A DNA stretch of 25,886 nucleotides from a virus (IMGVR_UViG_3300037574_000173:1-25886), one strand, 5' to 3'; shown: positions 776 through 19,800, counted from the first letter of the stretch. Made by a program: numbers and translations. The notes: generated from the letters alone by a model not told the origin.

Positions 776-1717
776 ATGGAAGATTATCAAGCACCGTTGG
801 GTGCATCACAATCAGTGGAAAAACTAGCACAAATGCAAACAGAACAAGCGAACGTAACTACTCATGATGACATGGGAGAGCAACGAGAGCGTGTGATGTT
901 CGAGAGGCATGTTGAAACCAACGGGGAGAAGATTCCTCAGAACTTTAAGACAGCTGGTGAATGGTTTGATTCCCTAAAGGAAGCACAGAAACAATATACA
1001 CAGGGGCAGCAAGAGATTTCTGCTCTTAAGGAACAGTACTCTAAAGGCGGGGTAACCAATCCTGATTACGTAGAGGATGCAGTAGCATCAGAAACTACAG
1101 ATCAGATGGAGACACCTAATATTACTGGAGAAGAGGAGTTAAGGTTACAAACTCCTGTTGAGCCAGAGGTAGTCCCTCCACCCGCATTAAGCGGAGAGCT
1201 TTGGGACACATGGTCTTCAGAGTTCGCTATAAACGGTGGGTTATCTGACGAGACTTATCAACAGATACAACAAGTAACTAATTTCCCACGTCAAGTCATT
1301 GACGATTACATCAGTGCTCAAGGAGCCAAAAGACGAGAGTCTTTTACTACTGCAGCAGGTCTAGTGGGAGGACAAGAACGATTAAAAACTATCTTTGACT
1401 GGGCGGAAAGCACATTGAGTGCAGACGAACAGGCACAGATTAATTTAGGACTAGCTAGCAACACCTACGAGGTAACACTCCGAGGTCTTGCTTCTATGTA
1501 TGATCAGAAGTCAGCAGCCGCTGTCAAAAGTCAGGAGCCTTCAACAACTCCTGGTTTAGAGAACGTCGCTGCTTCTGAGCAAGGTTTTACAGGGTATAAA
1601 ACCAAGCGTGAATTCTCAGCAGACCGCAACAACCCTCGGTTCGGTGTCGAACCTAAGTTCCGAGAGGCTGTGGAGCAGAGAATGATGCGTACTGATTTCA
1701 ATACGCTGTCACCGTAA
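776..1717 (+). CDS. Capsid assembly scaffolding protein (T7 gp9-like)
   Basis: This is the internal scaffold that guides major capsid protein into the prohead and leaves before or during DNA packaging. The 313-aa length matches T7 gp9 (307 aa), and it sits directly upstream of the capsid gene as in T7. The protein is acidic, with a low-complexity Glu/Gln/Thr-rich N-terminal half (about 1-125), a proline-rich hinge (PEVVPPP near 131), and a helical C-terminal half. The C-terminal half carries the block typical of the family: GGLSDETYQQIQQVTNFP, then a GG-Q-R-L segment and AESTLSADEQAQIN, ending in a basic tail for capsid contact. Start ATG 776 has AAGGAG at 763-768. The gene precedes a 178-base non-coding gap, so it may be in a transcript separate from, or overlapping, that of the capsid. 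Confidence 0.88.
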   Translation: MEDYQAPLGASQSVEKLAQMQTEQANVTTHDDMGEQRERVMFERHVETNGEKIPQNFKTAGEWFDSLKEAQKQYTQGQQEISALKEQYSKGGVTNPDYVEDAVASETTDQMETPNITGEEELRLQTPVEPEVVPPPALSGELWDTWSSEFAINGGLSDETYQQIQQVTNFPRQVIDDYISAQGAKRRESFTTAAGLVGGQERLKTIFDWAESTLSADEQAQINLGLASNTYEVTLRGLASMYDQKSAAAVKSQEPSTTPGLENVAASEQGFTGYKTKREFSADRNNPRFGVEPKFREAVEQRMMRTDFNTLSP

Positions 1718-1895: not shown

Positions 1896-3176
1896 ATGCC
1901 TTATTCACAATCAACAGGGAACGATGTTGGATTCGCCAACATGCCCTATCGTGCAGGAGATGCACTAGCAACATCAGGAGTTAACCCTCCTGGTAAATTA
2001 TGGATCCCGATTTGGTCGGGCGAGGTCATCAATGCGTATGACCAATACAATAAGTTTGAGGGAATGGTAGATTCCAAAACTATTTCTAGCGGTACTACAA
2101 TGGAATTTCCCATTACAGGTACTGTATCACTGAAACCGGCTTGGTCAGCAGGTGAGGAACTCATCGGCGGCGAGAATGCTACAGCGACAACATTCCAGGT
2201 TAAACTGGATGCTCGTCCTATGGCAGCTCACTTCGAACTAGATAACATCGACTTGATGGTATCTCAGTGGGAGTACCGAACAGAGCTTGCACGTCAAGCA
2301 GGTATGACTTTGGCAAACACACGAGATAAGCAGATCGCTACTTATATTGCTCGTGCAGGTGCTGAAGATGCAGCATCTGGTGACCCTCGTGGTACATCAT
2401 TGATGCATCAGGGTTTCTATTCTACAGATTACAACGAAATGGCTTCGTTGGCTGCGGCTGATTCTACAGCTGCAACAACAGCTTGTCTATTGCTTCTCAA
2501 GAATATTGAGGACTGGATGGTTCACTTGCAACTAAAAGATATCTCTACAGAGGGTGTCTATTGTGCAGTAGAACCAGGTACGTTTGCTAACATCCGTGCT
2601 TTGGGTGTTGCTCGTGAAGCTGTTGACCTCGGCGGTGGTTCTGCAACGAGTGCTTCTGAACCATTGTTCGCTGGCATTGCTGAGCGTGGTGGTCTAGGTA
2701 GCAGCTTGGCTGGTCGACCGTACATTGAGGATACTCTCGAGTACATGGGTTGTACAATCTGCAAGACTAATCACGGACCATTCGGTATAGATTATGGTGT
2801 AGCAGGGGATGCGAATTCTATCGGTGAGGGTCGTTATAATCTTAACTTCCTAGGTGAAGATGCAGGTTTTGTTGGTGAAGACCTTACCACACTTCCAGTA
2901 TACTCCGCAGCTCCTAAAGCTATCCTATGGCAACGCAGCTGTGTTGCTGCTATGAAGCTTCAGGGTCTTAAGGTTGATGTTGTTGACGACGTTCGTCGTA
3001 ACACCACGTTCACCGTAGCAAGCATGATGAGTGGTACTGGCGTACTGCGTCCAGAGTGTGCTGCTGTTGTTTGCGATGTTACAGATGCTGGCGGTGCTGG
3101 AACACCAACAGTAGGAGCGTCACGAGCTCACTGTCGTGAAGCTTGGGGAATGACACAAGAATATGTGAAAGCATAA
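1896..3176 (+). CDS. Major capsid protein (T7 gp10-like)
   Basis: This protein forms the icosahedral head shell. It is 426 aa, longer than T7 gp10A (345 aa). The sequence shows the T7-type head protein pattern: an N-terminal segment running into KLWIPIWSGEVINAYDQYN, then a fibre-like segment SGTTMEFPITGTVSLK, then GEELIGG, LDARPMAAHFELDNID, and the helix with ELARQAGMTLANTRDKQIA. These correspond to the N-arm, E-loop and spine-helix region of the HK97 fold. It sits between scaffold and a strong terminator, as in T7. The stop lies 15 bases before the terminator stem, leaving no room for a 10B-like frameshifted extension. It has about nine cysteines (for example GCTIC near 287), more than expected for a T7-type head protein. 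The identity call is firm. Confidence 0.93.
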   Translation: MPYSQSTGNDVGFANMPYRAGDALATSGVNPPGKLWIPIWSGEVINAYDQYNKFEGMVDSKTISSGTTMEFPITGTVSLKPAWSAGEELIGGENATATTFQVKLDARPMAAHFELDNIDLMVSQWEYRTELARQAGMTLANTRDKQIATYIARAGAEDAASGDPRGTSLMHQGFYSTDYNEMASLAAADSTAATTACLLLLKNIEDWMVHLQLKDISTEGVYCAVEPGTFANIRALGVAREAVDLGGGSATSASEPLFAGIAERGGLGSSLAGRPYIEDTLEYMGCTICKTNHGPFGIDYGVAGDANSIGEGRYNLNFLGEDAGFVGEDLTTLPVYSAAPKAILWQRSCVAAMKLQGLKVDVVDDVRRNTTFTVASMMSGTGVLRPECAAVVCDVTDAGGAGTPTVGASRAHCREAWGMTQEYVKA

Positions 3177-3251: not shown

Positions 3252-3929
3252 ATGGGAGTAATTACCAAACAATCGGCTGTGAATCACATGCTTTTATTAG
3301 CAGGAGAATCCACTGTCAGTAGTCTAGATAACGATGCTGGTATAGATACAACAACAGCTGTATTTATATTGAATCAAGTTATACAGGACTACCTACTAAG
3401 AGGTACGGTGGGCAATAGGTCTATTGTCAAGGTAAAACTTGATGTAGAGGGTACTATAGAGCTGGGGAGTGTAGGTAATTACCCTATCATGTCAGCGGAA
3501 CTTATATCTTATCATACAAACGATGATCAGATGCTGATTCAAGCAAACATACGAGGTATAGATGGAGATTCTACACCCCATCTATGGAATATAACAGACA
3601 ATAAAAGTTCATGGAAAGCAAATACAGAGTACACACTAGAAAAAATACTAGAGCTACCTTGGGAAGATGTGGATACACCCTATCAGCGAGCTATGATGTC
3701 AACTGCTGCTCGACAGTATCAGTTAATCATGCAGGGTGACGCAGATCTAGATAAATATCTAGCTAATGCAGAATCGGTACACATGACCAAGGCTAGGGCA
3801 GCTAATGCAGATGATAAAAGAAGGCATGTATTTGACCAAATCACAGGCTTAAGTAGGGACGCTATATCACGACAGGGATATGGAAGCGACACCTCAAGGT
3901 TTAGATTCTGGAAAACGAGTACCCAATAA
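3252..3929 (+). CDS. Tail tubular protein A / head-tail adaptor (T7 gp11-like)
   Basis: This protein forms the ring joining the portal to the tail nozzle in T7-type podoviruses. The 225-aa product is slightly longer than T7 gp11 (196 aa). Family features are an N-terminal helix bundle with AVNHMLLLAGESTVSSL, followed by DAGIDTTTAVFILNQVIQDY, then a beta-rich middle. A C-terminal helical part contains YQRAMMSTAARQYQ and QGDADLDKYLANAE, which is the characteristic end region of gp11 proteins. Ribosome site AAGGAG is at 3239-3244, 7 bases from the ATG. It is the first gene after the terminator and is followed 18 bases later by the nozzle gene, the conserved gp11-gp12 pair. Confidence 0.9.
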   Translation: MGVITKQSAVNHMLLLAGESTVSSLDNDAGIDTTTAVFILNQVIQDYLLRGTVGNRSIVKVKLDVEGTIELGSVGNYPIMSAELISYHTNDDQMLIQANIRGIDGDSTPHLWNITDNKSSWKANTEYTLEKILELPWEDVDTPYQRAMMSTAARQYQLIMQGDADLDKYLANAESVHMTKARAANADDKRRHVFDQITGLSRDAISRQGYGSDTSRFRFWKTSTQ

Positions 3930-3947: not shown

Positions 3948-6900
3948 ATGGCATCACAAGGCATGAGATCTTTCTTTCCTGTGCGAGTAGATATACCTTC
4001 TTTATCAGGAGGGGTGGGGCGAGCAAGCCCAGCAAAAAGAGTACCTACGGAATCTGAATCTATGGATAACATAATCTGTTCTCTAGAGCACTCAGGAGAG
4101 AAGAGGCAAGGAGCAGAATTACTTAAGTGGAACGCAAATTATCCTGAAAACGTAACCGGAAGATTGACTGAGCTATCTCATGACCCAGATGACATGGGCG
4201 GTCCTCTCAGGAAGCTGTGGTTCCATTGGTTCAATGTCTCATCCGATGCACGATATCTCATATCTGTCGACACGTCATGTACCGTAGCAGTAATGGCAGC
4301 TGACTCGACGAGAAAACTATTGACAATACATCGTGTAGACAAGAATGGTGAGCTGAACCCTCAAACTATAAACGAGGATTGGATAGCGAACGAGGATAAT
4401 ATCAATTACTTAACCCATAATCCAGATAACAAGCCAGCTGAGGAGATTCTAAGGGCGGTATCTGTAGGTTCTACAGTTCTTATCTTGAATAAGGAAGTCA
4501 AGGCGGGGTTCTCTTCTGACGAGGATGCAGACGGGCATAATATGGATGGGGTAAAGGACTTAAGTCTTGATGATCTTACTGGACAGGAAGTAGAGTACAT
4601 GACAGCGTACACTGTAGATCCGGATGGTGAAGCAGAGATATGGACAGAGTTTACTCAGTATATCGCAGGAGATACTTGTTTCGACCCTAAAGACCTGCTA
4701 TCAGATCTATCAGAGGACGATGGGACAAGCTACCCTGATGATTATGATAGCTTGAGGAAAGGTATATGGAAAGTTAAGGATCAAGCCCCTGATATTGTAG
4801 GACCAGATGGGTATGGGACCAAAGTTCGTAGACCTTTGCACGGTATCCCGCTTGATCAAATGAATTTCTCACCAACATGTTCGAACGACAACCATATGAC
4901 AATGACTCATTGGTCAGGCGGCGGGATAGCCAAGCCAACCTCGTCAACCATAACAATGGTTGTCGACGGTGAGGTGCTAAAGGATGGCGACAGTGACACC
5001 GAAAATGTTACCGATTGGACAGCAGCAATGGACGGTGGTGTGTCGGGATTTTCAGGTTCTCCACCTGTATCTACCTATAACGGAACTCGTCTTAAGGTAC
5101 CTCACTGGTTACACACAAAGGAAGGTACAACCAAATTCCCACGTGTTGTTTTTGATAACACCATTGCTTGGAACGGGGCTTACAACGGTAAGATATGCGT
5201 GATAGAGCATGCTACAAGTACATCAGGTAGAATGCGACCGCCAGGTGCCTCGTACGGATCGTCGGTATTTCTTAAAGCGTTTGGAGAAACTGGTTGGGAG
5301 GCAGGAACCGAAGACTCAGGAGACAGACCTTGGGATCCAGAGAATCCTTATGTGAATCCGTACCCAGACGAGAATGAGGCATACATGAGCCCGGGTCAGG
5401 CATATCTGGTGATAGGGGTGAAGGGTAGTGAGATTACTACAAAGCAAGCACTTACTAAACATATTGTATCTACGTTACAAATTGGTTATGAAAAAGGATT
5501 GTTCCATATTACCACTGAAGTTTCGGCAGGTTTGAATGGGTGGGAAATGGAAGGTGTGTACACGGCACAGAACTGGGAACGAGATCCCGAGGATGAAGAC
5601 GGAGTGGACGAGGATGGTAATGATATCGAGGGCTGGGGAAATGAAGAACGAGCAGATGAGTGGGCAAGATGGACTGATTTCATCAAGGTTGCTGACTACT
5701 TCTACCCGAATCCAGCTAAGAAATTCTTAGGTCAAGCTATATCGGCATTCACAGATCTTAAGTTTCCTCCTGATGAATCAGATCTTAACGCTTTTAACGG
5801 TAAAGCCAACGTTAAAGAAATGATAAGAGAGTTGTATCCCGAGGAGTGCGAACATCAAACTGGTAACGATAAGGGTTTAGGCAAAATATACTACCTCAGT
5901 CAACAGTATCTCGGATTATCCGAAGGTTACTATAGAGTGAGGAGCGTAACAGAACAACCCTACATTCATAAGATAAGAACACCAGATTTAATGGGCGTTA
6001 TAGATAAAAAAAGAATGCCACGACAGCTAGCACTAGAGGATTTTAGTGAGGATGTAGAGGTTATAGATAACCAATGGACTATACGGGAATTAGACTGGGA
6101 TCCCAGAGATTCCGGTAGTATTATAGCTAACCCAGGTCCCTCGCTATTCCATGATGGGGACGGCAAGGCTATACAACGCGGTCTATCCGCAATGGCTTTC
6201 TACAGAGGTAGGTTATTCTTAGCATCCGAGGATATTCTTGTTTCTTCTAGGATTAATAACTGGGATAACTTCTGGGTAGATAGTTCTTCTACAATAGGGC
6301 TATCAGACCCGCTAGACTTGAGAGTATCATCTAATGCTTATACACCTATAACTTATCTACAACCGTACAGGAGTTTTTTATTCCTAGCTACAGAAGGTAG
6401 TATACAATACGAATTAATAGGTTCAGAAAATCAGATATCTCCGCTAACAGCTGAGATTGCACCAACATCCTTCTATAGTATGACACAAGATGTGCAGCCT
6501 GTTCTACTCAACAATAACTTATTCTTTTTAGATGATCAAAAACTATATATATACTTCGGAGAGCAATCTGACTCACCTCAGAATGCGATGGAAATATCTA
6601 TCAACTGCCCTGAGTATATTCCTAAGAATTTCAAGTCTCTTGCCTCATCCTCTGTAAATAATACGTTATTCATAGTAGACGCGGATGCTTTGAATCATGT
6701 TTACTGCTATACCAACAGGGTCAGCGGAGATTCTCTTGCTCAAAATGCTTTTTATAGATTTGTATTTCCTAGTTCATGGTCTATTCAAAGCGTAAGTGCT
6801 ATTGATGATTACTTATACATGGTTTGGCAAGAAGAAGGCAAGGTTGATGATGATGATTACTATACAAGTACAAACATAGGGCGTATACTTATACAAAATA

Positions 6901-7547
6901 CTGATCTAAAGAAGCCTCGTATGGATTCTTTGCTTAAATATACAAACAGTGACCTACTAGCAGATGCAGTGCATACTGGTGGGTACACTTTTTGTGATGT
7001 CAAGAGCCCCACTGATGATTTAGATTTTGCTGTGTTCTTAGATCCAGACCACGAAGGAGATTCGACCACCTTAACAACCATAGTATCCACATCTAATGCA
7101 GATGGCTATGTAAGGCTGTCTTTAGAAGGCAGCCATGCAGAAAGCCTCAACTCAACAGAAGGATTTTATATAGGGAAACGATTTAACCTATCAGTAGAGC
7201 TATCCCCTGTCTTTTATAGAGACGATAAGATGGACGCAGTCAACGGAACACTTAACCTCAGGTACGGTATGTTTAGATTCCGTAATTCTGGAGACTTTAG
7301 TGTCAGCGTAGCTCGTAAGGGAAGGGAAGCTAAACTAACGAAGCATGTTATAGACATTGTAGGACAGAGGGCAACTCTGGGCTATGTACCTTATGCAGAA
7401 TTCGGGGTATTTAAGGTACCTGTACTAGGTTTTAACAATGATCTTGTAATTAAGTTGGAAAGTAACTCAGTACATCCTCTATCTATCTCTGATATTGAAT
7501 TTGCATGCAAGTTTAAATTCAAGATGACTTCATTGGGAGGAATGTAA
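3948..7547 (+). CDS. Tail tubular protein B / tail nozzle (T7 gp12-like), enlarged
   Basis: This is the nozzle at the tip of the short tail, which carries the fibres and is the channel for DNA exit. The N-terminus has the family's GGV...P-A segment (residues about 20-30) followed by the NIICSLEHSGEKR element. The most recognisable block is at residues about 743-850: MAFYRGRLFLASED, INNWDNFW, then DPLDLRVSSN, a hydrophobic strand pair, and PLTAEIAPTSFYS. These are the conserved beta-propeller signatures of gp12 proteins. At 1199 aa it is about 400 residues longer than T7 gp12 (794 aa). Most of the excess lies between about residues 150 and 720 and includes two acidic D-x-D-G-rich loops (191-201 and 546-560). 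The stop overlaps the next start by one base (TAATG), and its 3' end carries that gene's ribosome site (GGGAGG, 7535-7540). Confidence 0.9.
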   Translation: MASQGMRSFFPVRVDIPSLSGGVGRASPAKRVPTESESMDNIICSLEHSGEKRQGAELLKWNANYPENVTGRLTELSHDPDDMGGPLRKLWFHWFNVSSDARYLISVDTSCTVAVMAADSTRKLLTIHRVDKNGELNPQTINEDWIANEDNINYLTHNPDNKPAEEILRAVSVGSTVLILNKEVKAGFSSDEDADGHNMDGVKDLSLDDLTGQEVEYMTAYTVDPDGEAEIWTEFTQYIAGDTCFDPKDLLSDLSEDDGTSYPDDYDSLRKGIWKVKDQAPDIVGPDGYGTKVRRPLHGIPLDQMNFSPTCSNDNHMTMTHWSGGGIAKPTSSTITMVVDGEVLKDGDSDTENVTDWTAAMDGGVSGFSGSPPVSTYNGTRLKVPHWLHTKEGTTKFPRVVFDNTIAWNGAYNGKICVIEHATSTSGRMRPPGASYGSSVFLKAFGETGWEAGTEDSGDRPWDPENPYVNPYPDENEAYMSPGQAYLVIGVKGSEITTKQALTKHIVSTLQIGYEKGLFHITTEVSAGLNGWEMEGVYTAQNWERDPEDEDGVDEDGNDIEGWGNEERADEWARWTDFIKVADYFYPNPAKKFLGQAISAFTDLKFPPDESDLNAFNGKANVKEMIRELYPEECEHQTGNDKGLGKIYYLSQQYLGLSEGYYRVRSVTEQPYIHKIRTPDLMGVIDKKRMPRQLALEDFSEDVEVIDNQWTIRELDWDPRDSGSIIANPGPSLFHDGDGKAIQRGLSAMAFYRGRLFLASEDILVSSRINNWDNFWVDSSSTIGLSDPLDLRVSSNAYTPITYLQPYRSFLFLATEGSIQYELIGSENQISPLTAEIAPTSFYSMTQDVQPVLLNNNLFFLDDQKLYIYFGEQSDSPQNAMEISINCPEYIPKNFKSLASSSVNNTLFIVDADALNHVYCYTNRVSGDSLAQNAFYRFVFPSSWSIQSVSAIDDYLYMVWQEEGKVDDDDYYTSTNIGRILIQNTDLKKPRMDSLLKYTNSDLLADAVHTGGYTFCDVKSPTDDLDFAVFLDPDHEGDSTTLTTIVSTSNADGYVRLSLEGSHAESLNSTEGFYIGKRFNLSVELSPVFYRDDKMDAVNGTLNLRYGMFRFRNSGDFSVSVARKGREAKLTKHVIDIVGQRATLGYVPYAEFGVFKVPVLGFNNDLVIKLESNSVHPLSISDIEFACKFKFKMTSLGGM

Positions 7548-9820
7548 TGGCTAATAATAATTCAGAAGCTATTACGTTTATTAAATTTGCTGCTGGAGAG
7601 TCCGACGACCCCTTGGGGTTATCTTATTCATACAGCTCTATAGACCTTAGCTCTAGTTTTATTGATGAGGATCAATTAGAGATCATAAGAGTTTTTGATA
7701 TAAGTACTGTACCAGAGTTAGTCACTAATGCTCCTACGGGTAAGGAGTTAGAAGGGATATATTCCTTACCTTATGTAGCTATATCAGGAAGTTCGATGTA
7801 TACGGTAGATGCTTCGACACAAGAAATTACATTTAGCACCTCTGCTTCCGACTTTATATGGACAGCGGCTGTTAACGGACGGGGAGGGGACATCGCTCTA
7901 CCTGTGTTTGATTACATTACTGATGTAGTGATAATTAGAAGAAAGACTTTTTCGTACTCACCTAATACAGTGTGGGTAGATGGCTCTAAAATTACCGCTG
8001 CGGGTTTGAACGCAAGAACTTCACAACTAATGCAGCTTACGCAGGAGATGAGGTCTATTCTCTTGAATCCTGAGTTATTCGATTATGCTTTAGGTGCGGC
8101 GGAGGGTGTATGTCCATTAGATGCTAACGGAGTTGTCCCTCTAAAACATATTAGCGAACAGCTAGGTGGTGGTGGTATCTTGGCAGTGGATTTATCTACT
8201 AGAGACTTGACAGAGTTGAAAGATGTTGATATAACTTACCCTATAACCGACGGAGATGTTATATCTTGGGATAACGCTTCGCAAAACTGGATCAATATCA
8301 AGCCTCTCTCTAAAACTGTAGATACCAGTGGGGCAGATAATCATTCGGTACTCATATGGGAAGACTCGACTAGTACATGGCAGCTTAAAACTTTTGAAAT
8401 GGAAGATTTGACAGATGTTAACGTAAACAATGCAAGTTTAGTACATGGTCAGTTATTAATGTACGATGACCCTGCCGTAAAATGGCAGCCCACTGATCTT
8501 GTGTATTATACAGGTGAAATTGACGGGGTTAGCTATACAAATGAACTCACCCCAGCCCATGTACTCACATGGAACACTACTACGAATAAATGGGAAGCTA
8601 GGGTAAGACCTGATGTTACTTACGAGGTGTTTAATCTTAATGACACTTCTCTGTTTGATCTCATGGACGTAAACCCTAGACTTGAGGGACAAGATCCTTA
8701 CGAGGGGGTAGTAGAGGGAGATATCCTCTCCTTTTTCTACTGGGATGGTGTCAGCCCTCAAGGAGGGTGGAGAGCTCAGAGTATAGACACGTGGGACTGG
8801 AATAATTGTTGGAACGGTGACGATGAGATATTAGATCCGTCTCATATTGGTTACACAGGCGGTTATCAGGGACCTATAATGTGGCGATGGCATGATTCTG
8901 GGTGGACACTTTACTGGCAGGAGGGACTTGCTCAGAAAGACCATTATCAGTTACCAGACGGGTCTGAAGGACCTTACAGAGGCTCCTTTAAAACAGGTCC
9001 TATGTTCGCTCCGTTTAACTTAGAAGCCGTGGGTTCAAAAGACATTGTTAATTGGGCACAGGCTGGCACTGTTGACGGAGTTGACTTACCTGGTCGATGG
9101 ACAGTACAGCCCTTGAACATGAATCACTTGTCTGATGTTGATGCACGGGTGTTTCCAATAGATCCAGACGGAAATCCTATATATAACGAGGGTTCTGAGT
9201 ACCCTGACACGGGGTCTTATTTAGTATGGGATCCCCAAAGAGAGAAATGGAGGGTAGAAGACCCCCCTGAAGGAGGAACGTTTGGAGACGCTCCTGTATA
9301 CCACACAGCTAGTTTTAAATTCAGAATTAGGGACGAGACCGGAGGGGATAATGTACTATGGTCACCTTCTAATCACTTTGCAGGATGTTGGATGGAGATG
9401 TGGACTAATCCTTTTACTAGTATAACTATAGAAAGCTGGTCACTGTTCGCTAACGCTAATTGTAGGTGCAGATGCAGGGTGTATAAAACAACACTTGCAC
9501 ATTTTGGTAATATCTACAATGAAGAGGATAAACCTGGCGGTTTAACAGCATGGGACAATGTAACTTATAATGACCTTGACAATAGTCAAAACCATAAATC
9601 ACATTATGTCCTGGGATTTGGTCAAGGCGGTGGGTCTCAGCCAGGTTACGGTAAGAAAAAAATAAGCTATAGTTTTCCCGACGGGAATTATTACTTCGAG
9701 AAAGAGACCTTCGTTAAAGATGATATGATTGTAGTAGAATTAGAGAATTTTATACGAGCAAACGGCAATCCAACAAATCAATTACACCTAGAACTTAGAT
9801 TCAAGATAAACATACTATGA
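7547..9820 (+). CDS. Tail fibre / adhesin 1, T7 gp17-type N-terminal anchor
   Basis: This is probably a trimeric fibre that attaches to the tail and contacts the host surface. Residues 1 to about 215 resemble the T7 gp17 tail-attachment domain: a beta-rich part, then VIIRRKT, a short V-W-x-D-G element, and a long helix beginning ITAAGLNARTSQLMQLTQEM. Residues about 223-574 contain roughly seven copies of a degenerate module of the form L-x-D-V...G-x-L-x-W-D...W, also known from other phage tail fibres. Residues about 590-757 form a distinct C-terminal domain, probably receptor-binding, with a CRCRCR motif near 640. The N-terminal part is clearly paralogous to the next gene. No chaperone or peptidase signature was seen at the C-terminus. 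The start is coupled to the gp12 stop. Confidence 0.82.
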   Translation: MANNNSEAITFIKFAAGESDDPLGLSYSYSSIDLSSSFIDEDQLEIIRVFDISTVPELVTNAPTGKELEGIYSLPYVAISGSSMYTVDASTQEITFSTSASDFIWTAAVNGRGGDIALPVFDYITDVVIIRRKTFSYSPNTVWVDGSKITAAGLNARTSQLMQLTQEMRSILLNPELFDYALGAAEGVCPLDANGVVPLKHISEQLGGGGILAVDLSTRDLTELKDVDITYPITDGDVISWDNASQNWINIKPLSKTVDTSGADNHSVLIWEDSTSTWQLKTFEMEDLTDVNVNNASLVHGQLLMYDDPAVKWQPTDLVYYTGEIDGVSYTNELTPAHVLTWNTTTNKWEARVRPDVTYEVFNLNDTSLFDLMDVNPRLEGQDPYEGVVEGDILSFFYWDGVSPQGGWRAQSIDTWDWNNCWNGDDEILDPSHIGYTGGYQGPIMWRWHDSGWTLYWQEGLAQKDHYQLPDGSEGPYRGSFKTGPMFAPFNLEAVGSKDIVNWAQAGTVDGVDLPGRWTVQPLNMNHLSDVDARVFPIDPDGNPIYNEGSEYPDTGSYLVWDPQREKWRVEDPPEGGTFGDAPVYHTASFKFRIRDETGGDNVLWSPSNHFAGCWMEMWTNPFTSITIESWSLFANANCRCRCRVYKTTLAHFGNIYNEEDKPGGLTAWDNVTYNDLDNSQNHKSHYVLGFGQGGGSQPGYGKKKISYSFPDGNYYFEKETFVKDDMIVVELENFIRANGNPTNQLHLELRFKINIL

Positions 9821-12696
9821 TTTCTAATAGAGATGTTATTATTTACGACCCCGGAGATCTTACAGATGTCTTTGGTTTCCTAGAGTACGGTAATATAGCT
9901 TTAGAAGACATAGACACAGACGAAAATCAGCTAGAAGTGGTCAGGAAATTTGATATTACTGCTCTGGAGGCTACATTAGTAGGACTAGGAGAACCTGTTC
10001 TAACAGGAGCAGAAAAAAGAACTCTGTTTACCTTGCCGAACGAAGATACTTCGGGCAGTTCAATGTATATTGTAGATTCACGACAGAAAACTATAGTTTT
10101 CTCTAAAGATACCGAAGATTATTGGTGGCAAGGGTTCGGTGTTCATCACTCACGTACATATAACTTGACGCTTCCATTGCCGACGAGTGATGATGTAATA
10201 ATAATACGACGAAAGACTCCTGTGTTAAACCCCGCTGTTGTTTGGAGAGATTATGACACCCCAACTAGCTTAAAATTCAATGCTGACTTTGAACAGATAT
10301 TAAAACTCACTAGGGAAATAAGGATAGAGGAGGAGGAGGACGGCTACTTTCGTTTCCATAGAGGTGCTAGAGAAGGTTATGCCCCCTTAGATGAAGATTA
10401 CTTAGTGCCTGATAATAAGTTTCCGTCTGGGATAGGACCGACAGGGGTACCTTTATCTAATAATTTAGAAGGAACACGTGTAGAAACCTTTTCTGACGTA
10501 CTGGATATACTTCCGGTAGAGGGTTATGATTTTGCATACTTAGCACAATATGACAAATGGGTACCTAGCTATCCTTTTGAGAGTATTGACAAGTTCGATG
10601 GTGGCATTCTGAGATTGGTCTGGTATGCTAGTGGATGGACTGGTGTAGGGTACAAGATTAACTACCTTGGCGAAGTCTTAGCCAAGAGAGATAGGACAGG
10701 GGACGGAGCTATGTACCAACCAGAGACAGGTGAAATACTCCAGTGGTATGATGTAGCTAGTCAGGACTCTCCTCACTCTGAAGCAGATCAGTGGGGATTA
10801 AGCGGAATTACTGTGGTTAATAACGAACCGTTAGAACCCGGTGACCGATGGAACTTAATGTGGAGTACAATTAGTAACAGGTGGTTAGCAAGCTCTATTA
10901 TTATAGACGAGATGCCTGTATATATATGGGAAGATGAGGAACATCTTTTAACAGCCATTGGAGATGTAGAGGATAATTATATTGATCCTCTAGGAAGGAT
11001 AGTAGATCAACCAGGGAATGCAGATGTAGTCATGTGGGATAGCACGGCAGAAAAGTGGAGGAGTAAACCTGGTAGTTCCTGGACTGGAAGAAGCAACTAC
11101 AGGGGAAGTGCTACGATTACAGATCCCACTGATCCGGGATATACAGCAGGATATACTGGGGATGACTTATGGCAGTTCTACAAAAACGGATTTGTTATGT
11201 ACTGGCACAAAGAATTATTTCCTAATAGTCCTTATGAAGACCCGCAAGATCCTCTGGAATGTGGTGCTTATACGGCAGGTCTTCCTTTGTGTTGGGATCC
11301 TCAGATTGTAACAGATCAGGGTAATGTAGGTGCACACGTAGAACTGAATGGTGGGTACTGGTATACATTTACCATGCTTTATGATCAAGACGGGGAGACT
11401 CACGAGGTTACAGAAGACCTTGAGAGGCAGTATAACCCCGTACCAATTCTAAGATATATAGACGGTGTCCTCCGGTTAGAGAAAATGTACTTAAAAAACA
11501 TGGGTAAGGTGGGCGACCCTGTAAATGGTTACTGGGGTGATAAAGGATTAGTACCTGTAGACGGGGCATGGTTAGAATTTAAAAACCCAGATAATAATAA
11601 CCAAGGTTATTGGGCACCTAACAGATACACTACAGATACAATGCCTACTAATCAAAATGTTACAACATACTCTATGAATATAACCCTCGATACAGAGTAC
11701 CATAGAGCCTCCAATGTTACGGAGGGGCTTAACTTGTGGGATACGCTGAGTACTAACACCACGGGATCAAATGTTGGGGTATATAAGAATATAGCCTCTT
11801 GTGCCCAAATAGATCTAGAGTCATATTCTCCTGGTCAAACATCTGCATCATACTTAGGTGGAGAAATGTGTGTCAATTCAGATTGCCGTATAACTCATTA
11901 CGCCTTTAGGGATATGTCAGAGATATTGAGATCTATGGATCGAGGTCCTAACCCGTACCCAGACCCTAAGAGCAATAGAATAGCTGACCATCAGAATACA
12001 GGGTATGGTAACACACCTACTTACTTTGGTGGTCTCTTTAAGTTAGTTAACCCCAATCCTGGGTACGCCAACTACCAGCCCTATTCACCACGAGTAGGAT
12101 GGATTCCTTCTGCACAATCAAGTGTTGGTCTACGACCAACGGGTGACATACACCATGGCTATTGTGAAGACGGACCGCCAGGGTACTCCGATGATAACCA
12201 ACCTGGTAATTCTAGTTACTGGGAACGGCGATTGATATACGCCTTTGAGAAGTTTAGAATATATAAGGTAGAAAGTGGGGATATTACAGCAAATGTGTTA
12301 CCAGAAGAAGAAATTGGACATGAAGATTACGATGTCAATGACGGACCAACTCAGACAGCTCCTATTTTGCATACCATAACAACCGTAGGATCGGTAGGCA
12401 CAAGCTTATCCTTGGCAGATGGCTATACAGGCACCTGGAAATCCTTACCTAACAACGCAAATACAAACCTTTTGAAAGGGGACAGGATAAGGGTAAGGGC
12501 GTGGATGCCTACTAACTATGAGAATGCGGGACCGCTTGACATACCTCACGATGACGATGCATGGGATCACAACCCTAGATACGGGGCATGGCAGGACCCA
12601 ATCCCAGCACAATCACTCGCTGAGATGGTAACAGTGCACTCAATAGCAATGGCAAATATATTATTTAAAGTAGAAAACACAGAGGATGGATATTAA
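9817..12696 (+). CDS. Tail fibre / adhesin 2, paralogue of the preceding gene
   Basis: This 959-aa fibre shares its first ~170 residues with fibre 1. Matching elements in the same order are DENQLEVVRKFDIT, SGSSMYIVD, a DDVIIIRRKT strand, and the helix after the V-W-x-D element. Residues about 221-423 hold several W-D...W modules. A second matched block, YTAGYTG...MYWHKEL at 442-467, aligns with fibre 1 residues 436-461. The distal ~490 residues are different, rich in Asn, Tyr, Pro and Gly, and likely set a different receptor specificity or form a branch or auxiliary subunit. The start overlaps the previous stop (ATGA). I see no ribosome site in the 30 bases before it, so translation probably depends on ribosomes finishing fibre 1. 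That would tie the amounts of the two proteins together. Confidence 0.8.
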   Translation: MISNRDVIIYDPGDLTDVFGFLEYGNIALEDIDTDENQLEVVRKFDITALEATLVGLGEPVLTGAEKRTLFTLPNEDTSGSSMYIVDSRQKTIVFSKDTEDYWWQGFGVHHSRTYNLTLPLPTSDDVIIIRRKTPVLNPAVVWRDYDTPTSLKFNADFEQILKLTREIRIEEEEDGYFRFHRGAREGYAPLDEDYLVPDNKFPSGIGPTGVPLSNNLEGTRVETFSDVLDILPVEGYDFAYLAQYDKWVPSYPFESIDKFDGGILRLVWYASGWTGVGYKINYLGEVLAKRDRTGDGAMYQPETGEILQWYDVASQDSPHSEADQWGLSGITVVNNEPLEPGDRWNLMWSTISNRWLASSIIIDEMPVYIWEDEEHLLTAIGDVEDNYIDPLGRIVDQPGNADVVMWDSTAEKWRSKPGSSWTGRSNYRGSATITDPTDPGYTAGYTGDDLWQFYKNGFVMYWHKELFPNSPYEDPQDPLECGAYTAGLPLCWDPQIVTDQGNVGAHVELNGGYWYTFTMLYDQDGETHEVTEDLERQYNPVPILRYIDGVLRLEKMYLKNMGKVGDPVNGYWGDKGLVPVDGAWLEFKNPDNNNQGYWAPNRYTTDTMPTNQNVTTYSMNITLDTEYHRASNVTEGLNLWDTLSTNTTGSNVGVYKNIASCAQIDLESYSPGQTSASYLGGEMCVNSDCRITHYAFRDMSEILRSMDRGPNPYPDPKSNRIADHQNTGYGNTPTYFGGLFKLVNPNPGYANYQPYSPRVGWIPSAQSSVGLRPTGDIHHGYCEDGPPGYSDDNQPGNSSYWERRLIYAFEKFRIYKVESGDITANVLPEEEIGHEDYDVNDGPTQTAPILHTITTVGSVGTSLSLADGYTGTWKSLPNNANTNLLKGDRIRVRAWMPTNYENAGPLDIPHDDDAWDHNPRYGAWQDPIPAQSLAEMVTVHSIAMANILFKVENTEDGY

Positions 12697-12914
12697 TGGA
12701 ACACGATAAACAAAAGTTATTACAGCAGTTACTTATTGACTGTATGTTAGAAGATTTAAAAGACCCCGATAAGTGTACACCTGGTTTATATCAGGTAGTA
12801 CGGGGTGTACTAAACGATAGTAAACAGGATATAGATGATATACCTAGAGAAACATTATCATTCCTTGAGGAGAGGCTCAGCAATGCTGTGCCATTTAAGA
12901 GGGAATCTGCATGA
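12696..12914 (+). CDS. Small terminase subunit (T7 gp18-like)
   Basis: This is the DNA-recognition/regulatory partner of the packaging motor. The 72-aa helical, acidic product is in the size class of T7 gp18 (89 aa). It shows a similar pattern: an N-terminal helix with D-x-M-L-E-D-L, then a TPGLYQVVRGVLNDSKQDID segment resembling the gp18 core. Its position directly before, and overlapping, the large terminase (ATGA at 12911-12914) is the strongest support. AGAGGA at 12681-12686 serves as ribosome site. The assignment rests on context plus a weak sequence match. Confidence 0.78.
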   Translation: MEHDKQKLLQQLLIDCMLEDLKDPDKCTPGLYQVVRGVLNDSKQDIDDIPRETLSFLEERLSNAVPFKRESA

Positions 12915-14596
12915 ACATACCACAGGAAATGTTAGACGATTTTAGAAATCACCTATGGGCTTGCTTCAAGTACCTAGGACTAGGAGACCCTACAGCAGCA
13001 CAGTATGCTATGGCAGATGCTCTACAGAACGGTGCTAAGGATATGCAGCTACAAGCAGGAAGAGGCTTCGGTAAGTCTGTTATTACAGCATGCTTAGCTT
13101 CTTGGTTCTTATTACAAGACCCTAACACTACTATAATGGTTGTATCAGCGACAGGGAACAAAGCTACGGAGTTTATTTCTATGACCCGTAAGATTTTAGA
13201 TCTTGTACCGTACTGTGAATTCATGCGACCTGGTGATCATACTACAGATAATGCCTTTGCATTTGACATAGAGTGCAGGACAAAGATTGGACAGGATAAG
13301 TCTTGTTTCGCAAGGGGCATTAGCTCTCAGATCACAGGTAGTCATGCTGACTATGTTATTGGAGACGATATTGAAATCGAAGGTAACTGTGAGACAGCCA
13401 ATGCTCGTGCAAAGCTTTTAAATAAAGTCTCTGAGTTTGAGCAGATACGTAACGTAGGGGGAAGAGTTATATTCCTGGGTACTCCTCAGATTAAGGACAG
13501 TATCTATAACCAACTTGCCTCTGGATACCCTGTAACAAAGTTTCCAGCAGTGATGCCAGATAGAAACAATCTATCTGAAATAGAGAATGTAAACGAATGG
13601 GTACTGCAATTAGGTATAGAAGAGGGTGAGCCAGTACAACCTGAGCGGTTCCCTATAGATGTATTATTAGAGAGAATGGCAAAGATTGGACCAAAACTAT
13701 TTGCCTTACACTATAAACTAGATACAACCCTAGCGGACTTTGAGAAGTATCCGTTACGATTATCAGATCTATTAGTTATAGATATGCATCCTGAGATAGC
13801 ACCAGAGAAACTAGTATGGGCTAAATCTGAACCTATGAAGAGCATGCCTAGCTTTGGTATGAGCGGGGATGTTATATATAATCCTATGTGGATATCCGAT
13901 AAGTTTGTTCCTTATGTTCAAACAATAATGACAGTAGATCCCTCAGGTAGGGGTAGCGACGAGACAGCTGTGTGTGTGGCTAGCCTAATTAACGGCTATG
14001 TCTACATACACGAGCTTATAGGCTATCCTGGTGGGTATGAAGCGGGTGTTCTAAAGAAGATTGCTCAAGTAGCATTGGAGTACAATGTTAAACAAATCAG
14101 AGTTGAGTCTAACTTTGGTGATGCCATGTATTGTCAGCTTCTTATACCAGTTGTCAAGAAGTTTTCAAACTCCATTGGAGTAATAGATTTCAAGGTAATG
14201 GGGAGAAAAGAAACACGTATACTAGCTGCGTTAGAGCCTGTGATGGCTCAGCATAGGCTGGTATTTAGTAAAAAAGCTATATCTCAAGAGGAGACTCAGA
14301 AGCAAATAACAAGGCTGCACGATGCACGTGGTGCTTTAAGGCACGATGATAGGGTGGATGTCCTTGCCTCGGCTATAGCTTATTGGGAAGATTCTCTTGC
14401 TTTAGATGTGGATAGGATCATAGCAAAAAACGAGGGTAAGGCAAGGAATGAGGTGATCAAGGATTGGGTTAATGATGATAGACGATTAGGGTTATTCAGT
14501 TCTCGATTACAGGATACCTTAACTAAAAATTCTAGAAGGCAGCAACCTGTCTCGAAATGGACAGGAACAAGATTTTATAAAGGAGGTCGCTTATGA
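12911..14596 (+). CDS. Large terminase subunit, packaging ATPase/nuclease (T7 gp19-like)
   Basis: This is the motor that translocates concatemeric DNA into the prohead and cuts it. The 561-aa length is close to T7 gp19 (586 aa). The ATPase half has a Walker A GRGFGKS at residues 50-56, then a hydrophobic strand IMVVSATG, and Walker B VIGDD at 149-153 followed by the catalytic acidic pair region D-I-E. The RNase H-like nuclease half has its three metal-binding positions: D343 in MTVDPSGRGSDETAV, E399 in IRVESNFGDAMY, and D479/D483 in LRHDDRVDVLASA, the typical T7-type C-terminal motif. AGAGGG at 12898-12903 is the ribosome site. All key residues are present, so the protein should be active. 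Confidence 0.96.
   Translation: MNIPQEMLDDFRNHLWACFKYLGLGDPTAAQYAMADALQNGAKDMQLQAGRGFGKSVITACLASWFLLQDPNTTIMVVSATGNKATEFISMTRKILDLVPYCEFMRPGDHTTDNAFAFDIECRTKIGQDKSCFARGISSQITGSHADYVIGDDIEIEGNCETANARAKLLNKVSEFEQIRNVGGRVIFLGTPQIKDSIYNQLASGYPVTKFPAVMPDRNNLSEIENVNEWVLQLGIEEGEPVQPERFPIDVLLERMAKIGPKLFALHYKLDTTLADFEKYPLRLSDLLVIDMHPEIAPEKLVWAKSEPMKSMPSFGMSGDVIYNPMWISDKFVPYVQTIMTVDPSGRGSDETAVCVASLINGYVYIHELIGYPGGYEAGVLKKIAQVALEYNVKQIRVESNFGDAMYCQLLIPVVKKFSNSIGVIDFKVMGRKETRILAALEPVMAQHRLVFSKKAISQEETQKQITRLHDARGALRHDDRVDVLASAIAYWEDSLALDVDRIIAKNEGKARNEVIKDWVNDDRRLGLFSSRLQDTLTKNSRRQQPVSKWTGTRFYKGGRL
14579..14587 (+). promoter_or_regulatory. Near-perfect ribosome binding site for the gp14-like gene, inside the terminase 3' end
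   Basis: AAAGGAGGT, 5 bases before the ATG at 14593, is complementary to the 16S 3' end. It is also read as the last codons of the large terminase (K-G-G-R-L). This suggests strong independent initiation for the internal virion protein block. Confidence 0.8.
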
Positions 14597-15357
14597 GTTA
14601 TATGTGGCTAGGACAGATGGGGATGGGACTGCTTTCTGGGTACTTGGGTTCTAAAGCAGCAGGTAATGAAGCTATGATGGCTGCTTGGGAGAAGAAGTCT
14701 CAGATTGCATGGGGTAATCACCGAGCGACTATGGATTTACTATCCAAGAATAGGAATATAAACAGTCAGGCTGTAGCTCAAGAGGAAGCAGCAACTGAAA
14801 TACGTAAAGAAGCCTTCGGTACTGAAGCTGAACAGAAGATCTATCTTCGATATCGTTACGATAATATGGATGGTAAGTTCTCAACGCAACACAAGTCGTC
14901 TACGGACATGCTTCAGATGTCTCTCACGAATAGGAACATAAACGGTCAAACTAAATACGCTCTGGACAGGGCAGTACGTGAGACAACTATGAATATAATG
15001 GTGGATTCAGGTATCAACAGACTAAATGACGAGAGAGATATCGAGAGAACTAGAGAAGCCAAGTTAAACAGTATACAGAGTAGCTACGTACAGCATGAGA
15101 AGTATATCTCAACACCAGGAGAACACATAGATCCTGCCGCTATGGGGAAAGCTGCAGAAAAAGTGGCGATGCAGGGAGCTGTGTTAAACACTGGTATACA
15201 AGCTGTAGGAAACTTTAGGTCAGAGGGTTTGCAAAACGAGCAGAGTGCTTGGCTAGAAACTCAGAAGTTAGACCTAGAGAAACGGACAAGTGAGTTCGGG
15301 GTCGAAACAAAATCCATGTGGGATGAGTTCTTCGCAAGAATGAATTGGGGGATGTAA
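14593..15357 (+). CDS. Internal virion protein (T7 gp14-like)
   Basis: This is probably the smallest of the ejected core proteins, which in T7 inserts in the outer membrane at the start of DNA ejection. The 254-aa protein (T7 gp14: 196 aa) opens with a Met/Gly-rich hydrophobic segment (LGQMGMGLLSGYLGSKAAG), followed by a long, almost uninterrupted helical region. That region has the family's layout: a helix with N-x-N-I-N-x-Q, a second NRNINGQ repeat-like element about 44 residues on, charged helices, and a late EKVAMQGAVLNTG segment. It starts 4 bases inside the terminase gene and leads the run of internal proteins. The assignment comes from pattern and context and is fairly confident. Confidence 0.8.
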   Translation: MSYMWLGQMGMGLLSGYLGSKAAGNEAMMAAWEKKSQIAWGNHRATMDLLSKNRNINSQAVAQEEAATEIRKEAFGTEAEQKIYLRYRYDNMDGKFSTQHKSSTDMLQMSLTNRNINGQTKYALDRAVRETTMNIMVDSGINRLNDERDIERTREAKLNSIQSSYVQHEKYISTPGEHIDPAAMGKAAEKVAMQGAVLNTGIQAVGNFRSEGLQNEQSAWLETQKLDLEKRTSEFGVETKSMWDEFFARMNWGM

Positions 15358-15361
15358 ACCT

Positions 15362-16405
15362 ATGAGAAACGACGACAAAGCCATAGCTGCATTAAACAAT
15401 ATAGCACAGAAGAAAAAGACACCTGTTGCGGATACCAGAAGAGACCCTGAAGAGTTAGCTGGAGACGTAGCTGTCAATACAAAGAATCGTTGGATGCAGG
15501 ATACTCAGGGTATGGAGCCAGCAAAAAGATCCGCACGATATAAGACAGAGGTTTTAGATAAGGTTCTAATTACTGATAGCAATAATGAAGAGCTACATGA
15601 CGAGTGGTTTGGTCTACACCCAATGGGTTATAACGCAGGAAGGACTGCTTACGAAAAGGAAACCATGGACACTGTCCAATCTTGGGCAGACAAGAACAAG
15701 ATAGCCTTAGAAACTGGCATACGAAATAACTTCACCCGTTTTTACAAACCATTATTCCCAGAGATTGATAGGATTTTCAAAAGAAACTCTGTCGAGTTAA
15801 TGGCTCAACAGCGAGACTGGACAGGGATCACTAGAGTGTTGAGTGTAGAGCCTATGATGGAAAACGTAGATTATAACAACTTGAATACCAACGGTTCCCT
15901 TAAAGGGAATGCTCGGGTGATACTAAAGATGAAACAAAACGGGGTTGAAGAGGGACATGAGGTAGATAGTGACGGTGTGATAGTGTACCCTACACCAGAA
16001 GGCTTTAGACCTGCATGGGACTTACCAGAAGAATTGGATTTAATAACAGCGTTATATGACGAGATACATACCTTACCTCTTATTGAAAAAAAACTTAAAC
16101 CTTACTATGATTCCTCTATAGGGAAACGACAAGATGAACACAAGGTATTATTAAAAAATTTATATGATAACAGACACAGGTTACCAGAAGATAGTAAGGA
16201 TAACGCTGTAATAGACTATGCTTTATCTACAGATAATCCGAATGCTGTGCTATGGGAGGCTATCTATGCAGATACTTTAAGTCAGATAGATAGAGCTTTA
16301 AATTTCAAGGATGTAACGAGACTCTGGATGAGCTCTCAAAGAAAATTAAACGACAGGTTGTCGGAAAGGATAAGTGGCGATGCCGAGCGAACAAGACAAA
16401 TATAA
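15362..16405 (+). CDS. Unrecognised 347-aa protein, probable internal virion protein
   Basis: I cannot name the family. The protein is soluble and charged, with no signal or membrane segment. It has a basic N-terminus (about 1-60), a W-rich region (SWADKNKIALETG near 108-122) and a helical C-terminal third rich in Lys, Asp and Leu. It lies 4 bases after the gp14-like gene and overlaps the next gene by about 26 bases. It is therefore embedded in the ejection-protein operon and is probably a virion component. It might correspond by position to the N-terminal part of a gp15-type protein, but no sequence signature supports that. The ribosome site is weak (GGGGGA about 10 bases upstream), suggesting coupling to the preceding gene. 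Confidence 0.75.
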   Translation: MRNDDKAIAALNNIAQKKKTPVADTRRDPEELAGDVAVNTKNRWMQDTQGMEPAKRSARYKTEVLDKVLITDSNNEELHDEWFGLHPMGYNAGRTAYEKETMDTVQSWADKNKIALETGIRNNFTRFYKPLFPEIDRIFKRNSVELMAQQRDWTGITRVLSVEPMMENVDYNNLNTNGSLKGNARVILKMKQNGVEEGHEVDSDGVIVYPTPEGFRPAWDLPEELDLITALYDEIHTLPLIEKKLKPYYDSSIGKRQDEHKVLLKNLYDNRHRLPEDSKDNAVIDYALSTDNPNAVLWEAIYADTLSQIDRALNFKDVTRLWMSSQRKLNDRLSERISGDAERTRQI

Positions 16406-16844
16406 ACAAGGCGGATTAAATGCTCCTAGAACGGCTGCTTATTCTAAGCGTGGTGGTTCGATGTATTCAGAGAGTGGGATAACAGGAGGTCAAGTAGACT
16501 TTACTATATACCGACCAGAGGGTAACTTATGGGCGGATCTAGCGACTAATATCGCTAAGGCTCTAGGTGACTGGAGGAAATTAGATAGAGCCCGTGAGGA
16601 TTTTCAACAGAAGAAAGTGACTGCGGAGTATAAAGATGCACAGGAGAGATATAACCATGCTTATGACCTTTTTGTAAATACCCCTGAACTGTTCACTAAA
16701 ACAAACTCCACTTGGACTGCTCCTGTACCCCGACGTATAACCAATCCCCTACCAGGAGATCCTAACTGGGTTCCTAAGCCGAGTGCTCCTGACGTAATAC
16801 ATCTAGATCCAGAAGAAGAAGAAGAGGATGATAACAATGTTTAA
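16380..16844 (+). CDS. Unrecognised 154-aa protein with acidic C-terminal tail, probable virion component
   Basis: No family is recognised. The N-terminal ~60 residues are Gly/Ser/Tyr-rich and look flexible. Residues about 55-105 form a charged helix (WRKLDRAREDFQQKK). The rest is Pro-rich, ending in an extremely acidic tail (EEEEEDD). I prefer ATG 16380, which has AAGGA at 16366-16370, 9 bases upstream. A GTG at 16374 in the same frame would add two residues but is only 3 bases from that site. The gene overlaps its upstream neighbour by 26 bases and the giant downstream gene by 8-17 bases. This tight embedding points to a shared assembly or ejection role. Confidence 0.72.
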   Translation: MPSEQDKYKQGGLNAPRTAAYSKRGGSMYSESGITGGQVDFTIYRPEGNLWADLATNIAKALGDWRKLDRAREDFQQKKVTAEYKDAQERYNHAYDLFVNTPELFTKTNSTWTAPVPRRITNPLPGDPNWVPKPSAPDVIHLDPEEEEEDDNNV

Positions 16845-19800
16845 TGATAATATACCTGCTGAAACAATGGATCAGATCTATAGTGGATATGGCACAATAC
16901 AAGAACTACATGATAATATTCCTGACCTAAAGGAAATACCACCCGATATCCTAGACTCCGATTTCATCAGAGCTATTAACGATGTGGATGATACTTCTTC
17001 AGGGTTTCTGGTAGAAGAGTATACACGTATGCGAAAGCAACATGAGTACAATACTTCTGTAGGTAGTTGGCAACATGTAAAGCCTGGCGGCATGGCAGCG
17101 TATATAAAAGAAAGAATACAATATACAGGAAGACCTCCAAGCGACGAAGTAATTCACGGTGGTGTGTCAGAAGCCTCTATCTATGCAGGAGAGGGTGTTT
17201 GGGAAGGTGATCGAATTGAGAACTTCATGATGAGCTTTCCAGGCTCTGACTTTATGGAATTACATGATCCAGAGAATCTAGGTAATTGGCTACCTGATGC
17301 GAAGCAGATGTTTGAAGATGCTGTTCGGCAGCACCCCGATGCAGCAGACTTCATCTTCCCTTGGACTTCCTTCGAGAGTCAGGATGAAGAAACTAGGACA
17401 GCACGTTATGCTTCAGAGGGGGCAGACTTAATGCACCTCTATAGATTGAATCAAGAAAGAAATAATCAGGTTGCTAAGAACGCAGCACTAGGGATTGTTA
17501 ATACATCCCCACCATTTACAACCAATACAAGCGGCGGTCCTACTCCCTTTACTGATCCTAAAATGGTCAGTCAAACTAAGGCTGAGTTGGAGCAATTCGT
17601 AGTAGATATGTCTGAACATGATGATGAACATCTTGTGGGCTATGTACGACATGTTATGAGAGGAGGTCTTAATACAGATGATGACCGTCTTATGATGGAG
17701 GGTGTGGGAGATGTAGAGAGAGCTGAGCACTTTAGGAAAGGTATTAAGAAGTTCAGTAGGGATGTTATATTACTAGAGGAGAGGGTATTCAATGCTTGGT
17801 ATACAGAGTTCACTTATGATGATGATGAAAGCTGGGATCTAGACGCTGAGATTATTTTTGATATAGCTATGACAGACGGACAGTTAATGAATCTGTTTCC
17901 CGATGGGGAAAGGGATCTTGAGTATGACGAAATGAGTTCGCAACAACAAGCTAAATTTAATCAGTTTAAAAACAGAGCATTCATAAGAGAGTTTTATTTT
18001 CAAGGGCATAAAAAAATTACTAGCGTCGATGCTATGGCATTAGGGCAGTTACACATGCCTCAATTATTTGACACTAATGATATAGGTTATCTAAAAAGAC
18101 TATCAGATGAGCAGCGTCTGGCTGAAGCTACGTTCAATCCTGAGCGAGCTGACTGGGGAGATACACGTATAACATGGCAAGCTGCTAGGAATGAAGTTGA
18201 ACGGCTCTATAGAGAAGATATGACAGAGATCGATGGTTGGATGACTGGACAGCAGGATGTTAATAAACAGCGACATAATTATATAGTCGAAGCTAGTAGA
18301 GTTCTCATATCTCCTGAGATAAACTCAGTGGAAGAATTGATAGGTAGTATAAAAACAATACACGATGATCCCGATATGAGTAATCAAATGAAGGGTTTAA
18401 AATACGGAGCGATTTCAAAGATTCTAAAGGAGTCTGCTAAGTTTGTAGCTAATTCTGTGGGCAAACGTAACGCTACTTGGGAGAAAGTCAGTATTTTGAA
18501 ACGGAGGGTTACAGAATCTAAACCAGGTAACAGACAGCCCTCGTCGCTCTCCAACGGTCTATTCGCATTCTCAAGCAACAACAGTACAACAATGAAATCG
18601 GAGTCTGATAATCCAGGAATGAACAATGCGAGGCTCACAGTAGTTGATCCTTGGTGGAACAATAAATTACAGAGCATTTACGAAACTATAACCCCCCAAC
18701 AAATTCTACAGGTAAATCCAACAATATTGGCTTTAGATGGCACACCGCTGAACTATGCAAAGCACATAACAGGGGTTGAGATGAGTCCAGATATGGTTGA
18801 AGTCTCTAGGCAAGGGTTTGGTTTAATGTCATCAGGTGAAATAATGATAGGGTCTTCGAAGTGGGAACTAATCCCAGTACTGGATCCAGATACTGGTGAA
18901 CCGGTACTTGATAAGCATGGGCTACCTACAGAGGAGATGAAGTTAACCGGTGAAGAGGCTGCACAGTATGTCATATTACCTCACGGTCCGATGACATCAG
19001 CGGTTATTATGATTGCTGCCATGGAAGCGGAGATTACAACTCCGAGCAACGAGGGGAACCCTGCGATAGCGTCAATAGCTAATCTAATAGCAGAGGCATT
19101 CAAGGGATTAAGTTATACTGGAAAAGATCTTGCGTGGGCTATGCAGAACGACCAGCAGGGTGTGGAAGCTTGGAAAAAAGCACAGGTTATTATGGTATCG
19201 GCAGTGTCTCAAGTTATTGATCATATGCAAGGAAGACCAGACTTTCAAAAGTTGTTAAGGACGGAACTAGGTATTAATCAAAAGGAATATTCTTCAATAG
19301 AGTTATATCTAAATGCCTTTACTCAGAAATTGTCATCTGGAAAAATTGGTGGAACAAGAAATGCCGTTGAGATATGGTATGATGTACTAAAGGATGCTGA
19401 GACGCAGGATGGATTCTATGATCGTGTAATGTTTACACTCGATGGAGAAATGAAAGCAATGGGAGACATGTTATACGAAACGGTAACCGTTGGGTATGAG
19501 CCTAATGCTGATGCAAGTCGCCTGACCTTCAGACCTGTATTTATGGGACATATTCCACAGGATACTGGTGGTGTATACCAGAAGACGGTACTACCTTATA
19601 TGGGGGGAGGTACTCAGTCAATTACTACCTTGGGTGACGGAGAGTTCTATTCACAGCCTGGACCTAATAACTCATTCCCAAAGGGTGAAGTAAACCAGAA
19701 ACCTAAAAGTATAACTACGAATGCTTGGGAACGTATTGCAGACTGGAAGAAGAAAGAAATACTTGCTCCCGCACCTGCGACTCTATGGAGCAGTGCATCG

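Follow-up and report, generated by a model that had tools for sequence, protein, structure and literature searches.

Two tandem tail-fibre genes

The DNA analysed here, referred to as the window, is the whole 25,886-nucleotide (nt) stretch IMGVR_UViG_3300037574_000173:1-25886 of an uncultured T7-like virus. Two tail-fibre genes lie in tandem in its T7-like late block, between the nozzle gene and a small-terminase-like open reading frame (ORF). Their products, fibre 1 and fibre 2, are homologous: residues 12-470 of fibre 1 and 8-476 of fibre 2 were aligned by BLASTP (126 bits, expectation value (E) 7e-34, 27% identity), and comparison of a fibre-1 with a fibre-2 profile gave a probability of 100% (E 4e-41). 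The similarity was strongest in the first ~190 residues and in a middle module (340-470 versus 347-476; GYTGGY / GYTAGY), which was significant by itself (E 4e-9 against 1,053 proteins). Beyond residue ~475 of fibre 1 and ~485 of fibre 2, the distal parts showed no significant mutual match by BLASTP.

An initial annotation had placed two tandem paralogous fibres at 7547-12696, with unrelated distal halves, and had attributed them to duplication followed by divergence. The ORFs 7547-9820 and 9817-12696 were confirmed, the distal halves behaved as described, and the duplication is supported by the 470-residue homology, by the tandem position and by the confinement of the pair to one terminase clade (see below). 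The annotation reported an alignment in the first ~170 residues and again at ~440; both regions do match, but the alignment is continuous to ~470 and does not form two islands. The N-terminal similarity did not vanish in profile searches, the test that had been set to refute it, and it reached ~1e-6 against gp17-type anchors. The features of the locus are listed in Table 1.

Table 1. Features of the window and of one contrasting group of relatives (aa, amino acids)
Feature	Position (nt)	Strand	Remarks
Scaffold-like ORF	776-1717		weak PF05396 match
Major capsid	1896-3176		PF21703
Adaptor (tail tube A, T7 gp11 type)	3252..3929	+	PF17212 above cut-off; sole adaptor match of the record; expected half of fibre seat
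Nozzle (T7 gp12 type, 1199 aa)	3948..7547	+	PF25675 E 4e-60; phrog_457; T7 gp12 by profile; expected other half of seat
Nozzle insert, residues 241-575	4668..5672	+	phmmer; parts recognisable only in tandem-fibre relatives
Fibre 1 (757 aa)	7547..9820	+	nozzle stop and fibre 1 start overlap (TAATG); GGAGG upstream
Fibre 1 anchor jelly roll, residues about 10-133	7574..7945	+	profile and fold match to T7 gp17, P-SCSP1u gp28
Fibre 1 hinge (143-153, holds GSKITA) and helix (151-173)	7973..8065	+	canonical
Fibre 1 middle module, residues 340-471	8564..8959	+	common to fibre 2
Fibre 1 distal part, residues 476-757	8972..9817	+	not related to fibre 2; L002 has a homologous tip
Fibre 2 (959 aa)	9817..12696	+	fibre 1 stop and fibre 2 start overlap (ATGA); upstream, no clear ribosome-binding site
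Fibre 2 anchor jelly roll, residues about 6-133	9832..10215	+	profile-profile and fold match to gp17 type
Fibre 2 hinge (143-153) and helix (151-173)	10243..10335	+	GSxxTA motif eroded; helix still predicted
Fibre 2 middle module, residues 347-476	10855..11244	+	BLASTP alignment with fibre 1
Fibre 2 distal part, residues 486-959	11272..12693	+	no fibre 1 match; most variable part between lineages
Small-terminase-like ORF	12696-12914
Large terminase	12911-14596
L042-group beta-helix spike	L042 7188-9449		same position in L043, L048, L049, L050, L067, L088

In the shaft of fibre 1, repeated L-x-D-V ... W units were observed at residues 217-364 (window 8195-8638), and this repeat matched phrog_24501, phrog_9627 and phrog_11660, a set of phage families that includes a tail protein and is otherwise of unknown function. 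A tblastn search in named phages returned only a weak match of the mid-shaft repeat, and full-length fibre 1 as query against viral contigs gave no matches. Beyond the fibres (12696-25886), the terminase genes precede large ORFs presumed to encode internal virion proteins, a gene order that differs from that of T7; a 1907-aa ORF among them (16828-22551) holds a transglycosylase-like stretch near residues 1670-1726. A marine habitat is assumed by analogy with the phages that the window terminase resembles.

Anchor fold and hinge segment

Judged by sequence profiles and predicted structure, both fibres carry a gp17-type anchor. Against nine gp17-type anchors from named T7-like phages, profile-profile comparison with hhalign gave 91.7% (E 7.6e-7) for the fibre 1 anchor and a weaker 90.8% (E 1.2e-6 over 52 columns) for that of fibre 2, and all anchors pooled reached E 1.2e-11. 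Among solved structures, the pooled profile found gp28 of the cyanophage P-SCSP1u (E 6e-6) and T7 gp17 (E 1e-4 to 5e-4). AlphaFold2 models were confident only in the anchors, the middle and distal models being poor. The fibre 1 anchor model aligned structurally to T7 gp17 and P-SCSP1u gp28 (7ey9, 8i4m) with Z 9.6, and the fibre 2 anchor model to the same proteins (7ey9) with Z 9.2, the next unrelated chain scoring 3.5, so that the N-terminal fold of jelly roll plus helix is predicted for both fibres. The fibre 1 tip also matched beta-sandwich proteins (Z about 6 to 7), but its model is of low confidence and these matches were not used; the distal fibre 2 model was too poor for use.

The two anchors differ at the hinge, taken as the eleven columns linking jelly roll to helix. 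Anchors were scored against a leave-one-out profile built from fibre-1 and single anchors, 22 in number, and compared with the five fibre-2 copies. The hinge scored 13.9-32.2 bits in 22/22 fibre-1 and single anchors and -20.2 to +2.8 bits in 5/5 fibre-2 copies, with 24.4 bits for fibre 1 and -6.0 bits for fibre 2 of the window; the chance of so full a separation under label permutation was 1.2e-5, the five copies being related to one another. The fibre 1 hinge GSKITAAGLN fits the pattern G-S-x-[LIV]-T-[AS]-x-x-L-N, while fibre 2 has DYDTPTS where G-S-x-[LIV]-T-[AS] is expected, and the motif was eroded in every fibre-2 copy. Since this motif is common to T7 gp17 and P-SCSP1u gp28, its conservation is deep. 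Jelly-roll scores were alike (98-138 bits in fibre-2 and 87-143 bits in fibre-1 copies). The helix score was also weaker in the fibre-2 copies, that of locus L002 nearly overlapping the other anchors, and a helix is still predicted in the window fibre 2 model despite the hinge erosion. The shared anchor of the initial annotation therefore stands for the jelly roll, but the hinge and helix segment of fibre 2 has diverged. Lacking the hinge motif, fibre 2 is classed as a paralogue of gp17-type fibres and not as a standard member.

In P-SCSP1u, the fibre trimer touches the nozzle platform and two adaptors through the helices of its three chains, and adaptor docks through two of its jelly rolls (PMC10575957). 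The changed segment of fibre 2 thus adjoins a helix that contacts the tail in that phage, and by this analogy the docking pose of fibre 2 may differ from that of fibre 1.

Distribution, tips and gene junctions

With the terminase as search seed, 80 loci of uncultured relatives were collected on contigs of up to about 67 kb; the near relatives were all metagenomic contigs, and the tandem lineages amount to four plus one fragment. Two anchors were found by profile scans in the window, in L001 (with L085), in L002 and in L006 (with L094 and L095), and in the fragment L009 a truncated gene is followed by an anchor of the fibre-2 type. All other anchor-bearing records, including those of 54-67 kb, held one anchor each; the completeness of the records is unrated, and absence from them is no proof. 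In the terminase tree, all tandem loci and L009 were placed in one fully supported clade of 13 rows without a single-fibre member, and the 21 typed single-anchor relatives lay together on one side of a branch with full support. A single PF03906 anchor above cut-off was present in each of ten named T7-like phage genomes. MedDCM-OCT-S28-C3, considered as a precedent on account of a weak second PF03906 match, was rejected because that match lies in the nozzle gene.

Since the tandem pair is confined to one terminase clade, with single anchors outside it, the pair probably goes back to one old duplication that was retained, which is also the simplest account. In the anchor tree, the single anchors of the same large group were gathered in one starred clade that excluded the tandem copies; a clade of all tandem copies was not rejected, the monophyly of fibre 2 was neither supported nor rejected, and the fibre-2 anchors had long branches. 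Fibre 2 was represented by a long open frame in every tandem-clade locus covering the position, and 21 columns of its anchor were invariant at an identity of roughly 30%. The close-relative pairs compared for the ratio of nonsynonymous to synonymous substitution (dN/dS) were identical or nearly so.

Between the window, L001 and L002, fibre 1 could be aligned nearly to its end, whereas window fibre 2 could be aligned only to residue 500 with L001, 630 with L002 and 256 with L006. Fibre 2, being alignable less far, is probably the more variable determinant of specificity.

Across the tandem loci, the start of fibre 2 lies -4 to +3 nt from the stop of fibre 1, which, together with the lack of a clear ribosome-binding site upstream of fibre 2 in the window, is consistent with coupled synthesis of fibre 2. 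In L002 (4448-9783), fibre 2 is split into two adjacent genes of 626 and 1154 aa, the first matching residues 1-291 and the second residues 295-630 of window fibre 2. L002 fibre 2 also has an insert of ~137 aa within the anchor and a further insert, neither of which is shared by fibre 1. The junction of the split reads TAATG and the second gene has its own AGGAGG; given these and about 500 extra residues, a sequencing frameshift is the less likely explanation.

Arrangement of the two fibres on the tail

As in T7 gp17 and P-SCSP1u gp28 (Phage_T7_tail, PF03906), the window fibres have an N-terminal jelly roll plus helix and the adaptor and nozzle genes are adjacent, and fibre 1 carries the hinge motif present in both proteins. 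The window differs from them in having two tandem copies instead of one, in the eroded hinge of fibre 2 and in giving no direct PF03906 call. Every record with an adaptor match, from tandem and single phages alike, has just one, so both fibre species probably share one tail ring. For the nozzle insert, phmmer matches were found only in L001, L085/L099, L094, L095 and L103; the other relatives had short or unrelated stretches at its position, including several single-fibre nozzles with unrelated inserts. The position is thus an insertion hot spot. The insert was not accepted as proof of a second dock: the tandem loci form a single clade, so that finding insert and fibre pair together does not count as independent evidence.

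The anchor-branched systems of KP32, KP34, G7C and the K1-5/SP6 adapter type likewise combine two receptor-binding proteins on a short tail, but their second protein is without anchor and attaches by a conserved peptide (PMC6872550); in contrast to the KP32/K1-5 type, window fibre 2 has a gp17-type anchor fold. A short tail with more than one type of fibre is also known or suggested, for GP4 (cited in PMC11784390) and for PhiGT1, which has two tubeA adaptor paralogues (PMC10386132), unlike the single adaptor match per record here. Among the relatives of the window, the gene directly after the fibre in the single-anchor contigs of the L042 group (Table 1) encodes a protein without anchor that begins M-x-x-T-[KR]-[TS]-N-L-R-M, and the scanned members matched beta-helix and tail-spike families. 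These contigs resemble the K1-5/KP32 passenger scheme, and the window clade has reached two receptor-binding proteins by another route.

The reading towards which we lean, with some reserve, is that of two homotrimeric fibres derived from an old tandem duplication of a gp17-type gene, sharing one adaptor-nozzle ring and kept as a pair in one clade. The duplication would have occurred within a single clade of uncultured T7-like podoviruses, and both copies would have been retained; each protein would form its own homotrimer, and both would plug into the one ring, sharing its six fibre positions or using adjoining surfaces. Fibre 1 would dock in the gp17 manner. Fibre 2, which keeps its jelly roll but has a changed joint to the helix, would dock at another angle or on an altered seat and would carry the more variable tip; the close gene junctions suggest that it is made by coupled translation, in a ratio tied to fibre 1. 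A more specific form, in which the fibre 2 anchor was re-fitted to a second kind of seat (another pose on the ring or the nozzle insert of the clade), giving two coordinated fibre sets on one ring, is possible but is put forward tentatively. Several points weigh against the two-homotrimer reading. Because the five fibre-2 copies share ancestry, their hinge erosion may go back to a single event; a profile of fibre 2 alone finds no gp17 chains in the PDB, and the direct PF03906 scan calls neither window fibre; the predicted fold of fibre 2 is not fully independent, as its model alignment includes fibre-1 and single anchors; and docking, stoichiometry and the presence of both fibres in the virion are what we infer.

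A branched fibre, in which fibre 1 is bound to the tail and carries fibre 2, the old anchor of fibre 2 being reused as a coupling domain, would explain why the hinge adjoining the tail-contacting helix is eroded, and it agrees with the coupled gene order and with the frequent branching of dual receptor-binding proteins in related phage groups (PMC6872550). It is nevertheless rather unlikely, since the second protein of the described systems lacks an anchor and attaches by a short peptide (PMC6872550), while fibre 2 keeps the whole gp17-type fold; nor was a T4 gp10-like branching domain found in fibre 1 with Pfam and PHROGs, the middle and distal models being poor. The competition for one nozzle site proposed by the initial annotation needs qualifying, because the hinge of fibre 2 is eroded relative to single-anchor relatives and T7-like gp17. 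In its strict form, with both fibres docking identically, occupying the same six sites at random and the hinge changed by neutral drift, we regard it as improbable: fold, adaptor and nozzle are the same, the fibre 2 helix is still predicted and the fibre-2 profile still aligns to gp17 through the hinge segment (E 1.2e-6), but the hinge is kept in all 22 other anchors, in T7 gp17 and in cyanophage gp28, fibre 2 itself retains its jelly roll, and drift should not be so local.

The heteromeric fibre, also proposed by the initial annotation, would fill all six positions with trimers that mix the two fibres, the three non-equivalent chain places being shared out between the paralogues. The differing contacts made by the chains of the P-SCSP1u gp17-type trimer (PMC10575957) and the near co-linearity of the two proteins (470 residues in the window, over 500 in L001) speak for it. 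In L002, the inserts and the two-gene split of fibre 2 make it unlikely that its shaft runs in register with that of fibre 1. This counts against a strictly in-register heterotrimer in that lineage, and mixed trimers are judged very unlikely overall. Scarcely any weight is given to fibre 2 being a decaying duplicate and not a working part of the virion. Its anchors are long-branched and without family match, but long open frames with invariant anchor columns persist in all tandem-clade loci that cover the position, and the distal part of L002 fibre 2 has an open frame and an AGGAGG of its own.

Two kinds of fibre are thus probable for the phages of the tandem clade, as against a single kind in their relatives. 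No precedent for tandem gp17-type fibres turned up in literature searches, with subscription journals largely outside reach, and two coordinated fibre sets on a single ring, if true, would be an arrangement without T7-like precedent in the literature surveyed. A clade in which both anchored fibres were kept and one small joint was changed would be a natural experiment on the function of the gp17 hinge, in which the fibre 2 hinge points to specific residues and the single-anchor relatives with the passenger route give the contrast; it may also inform how two fibres can share six tail positions.

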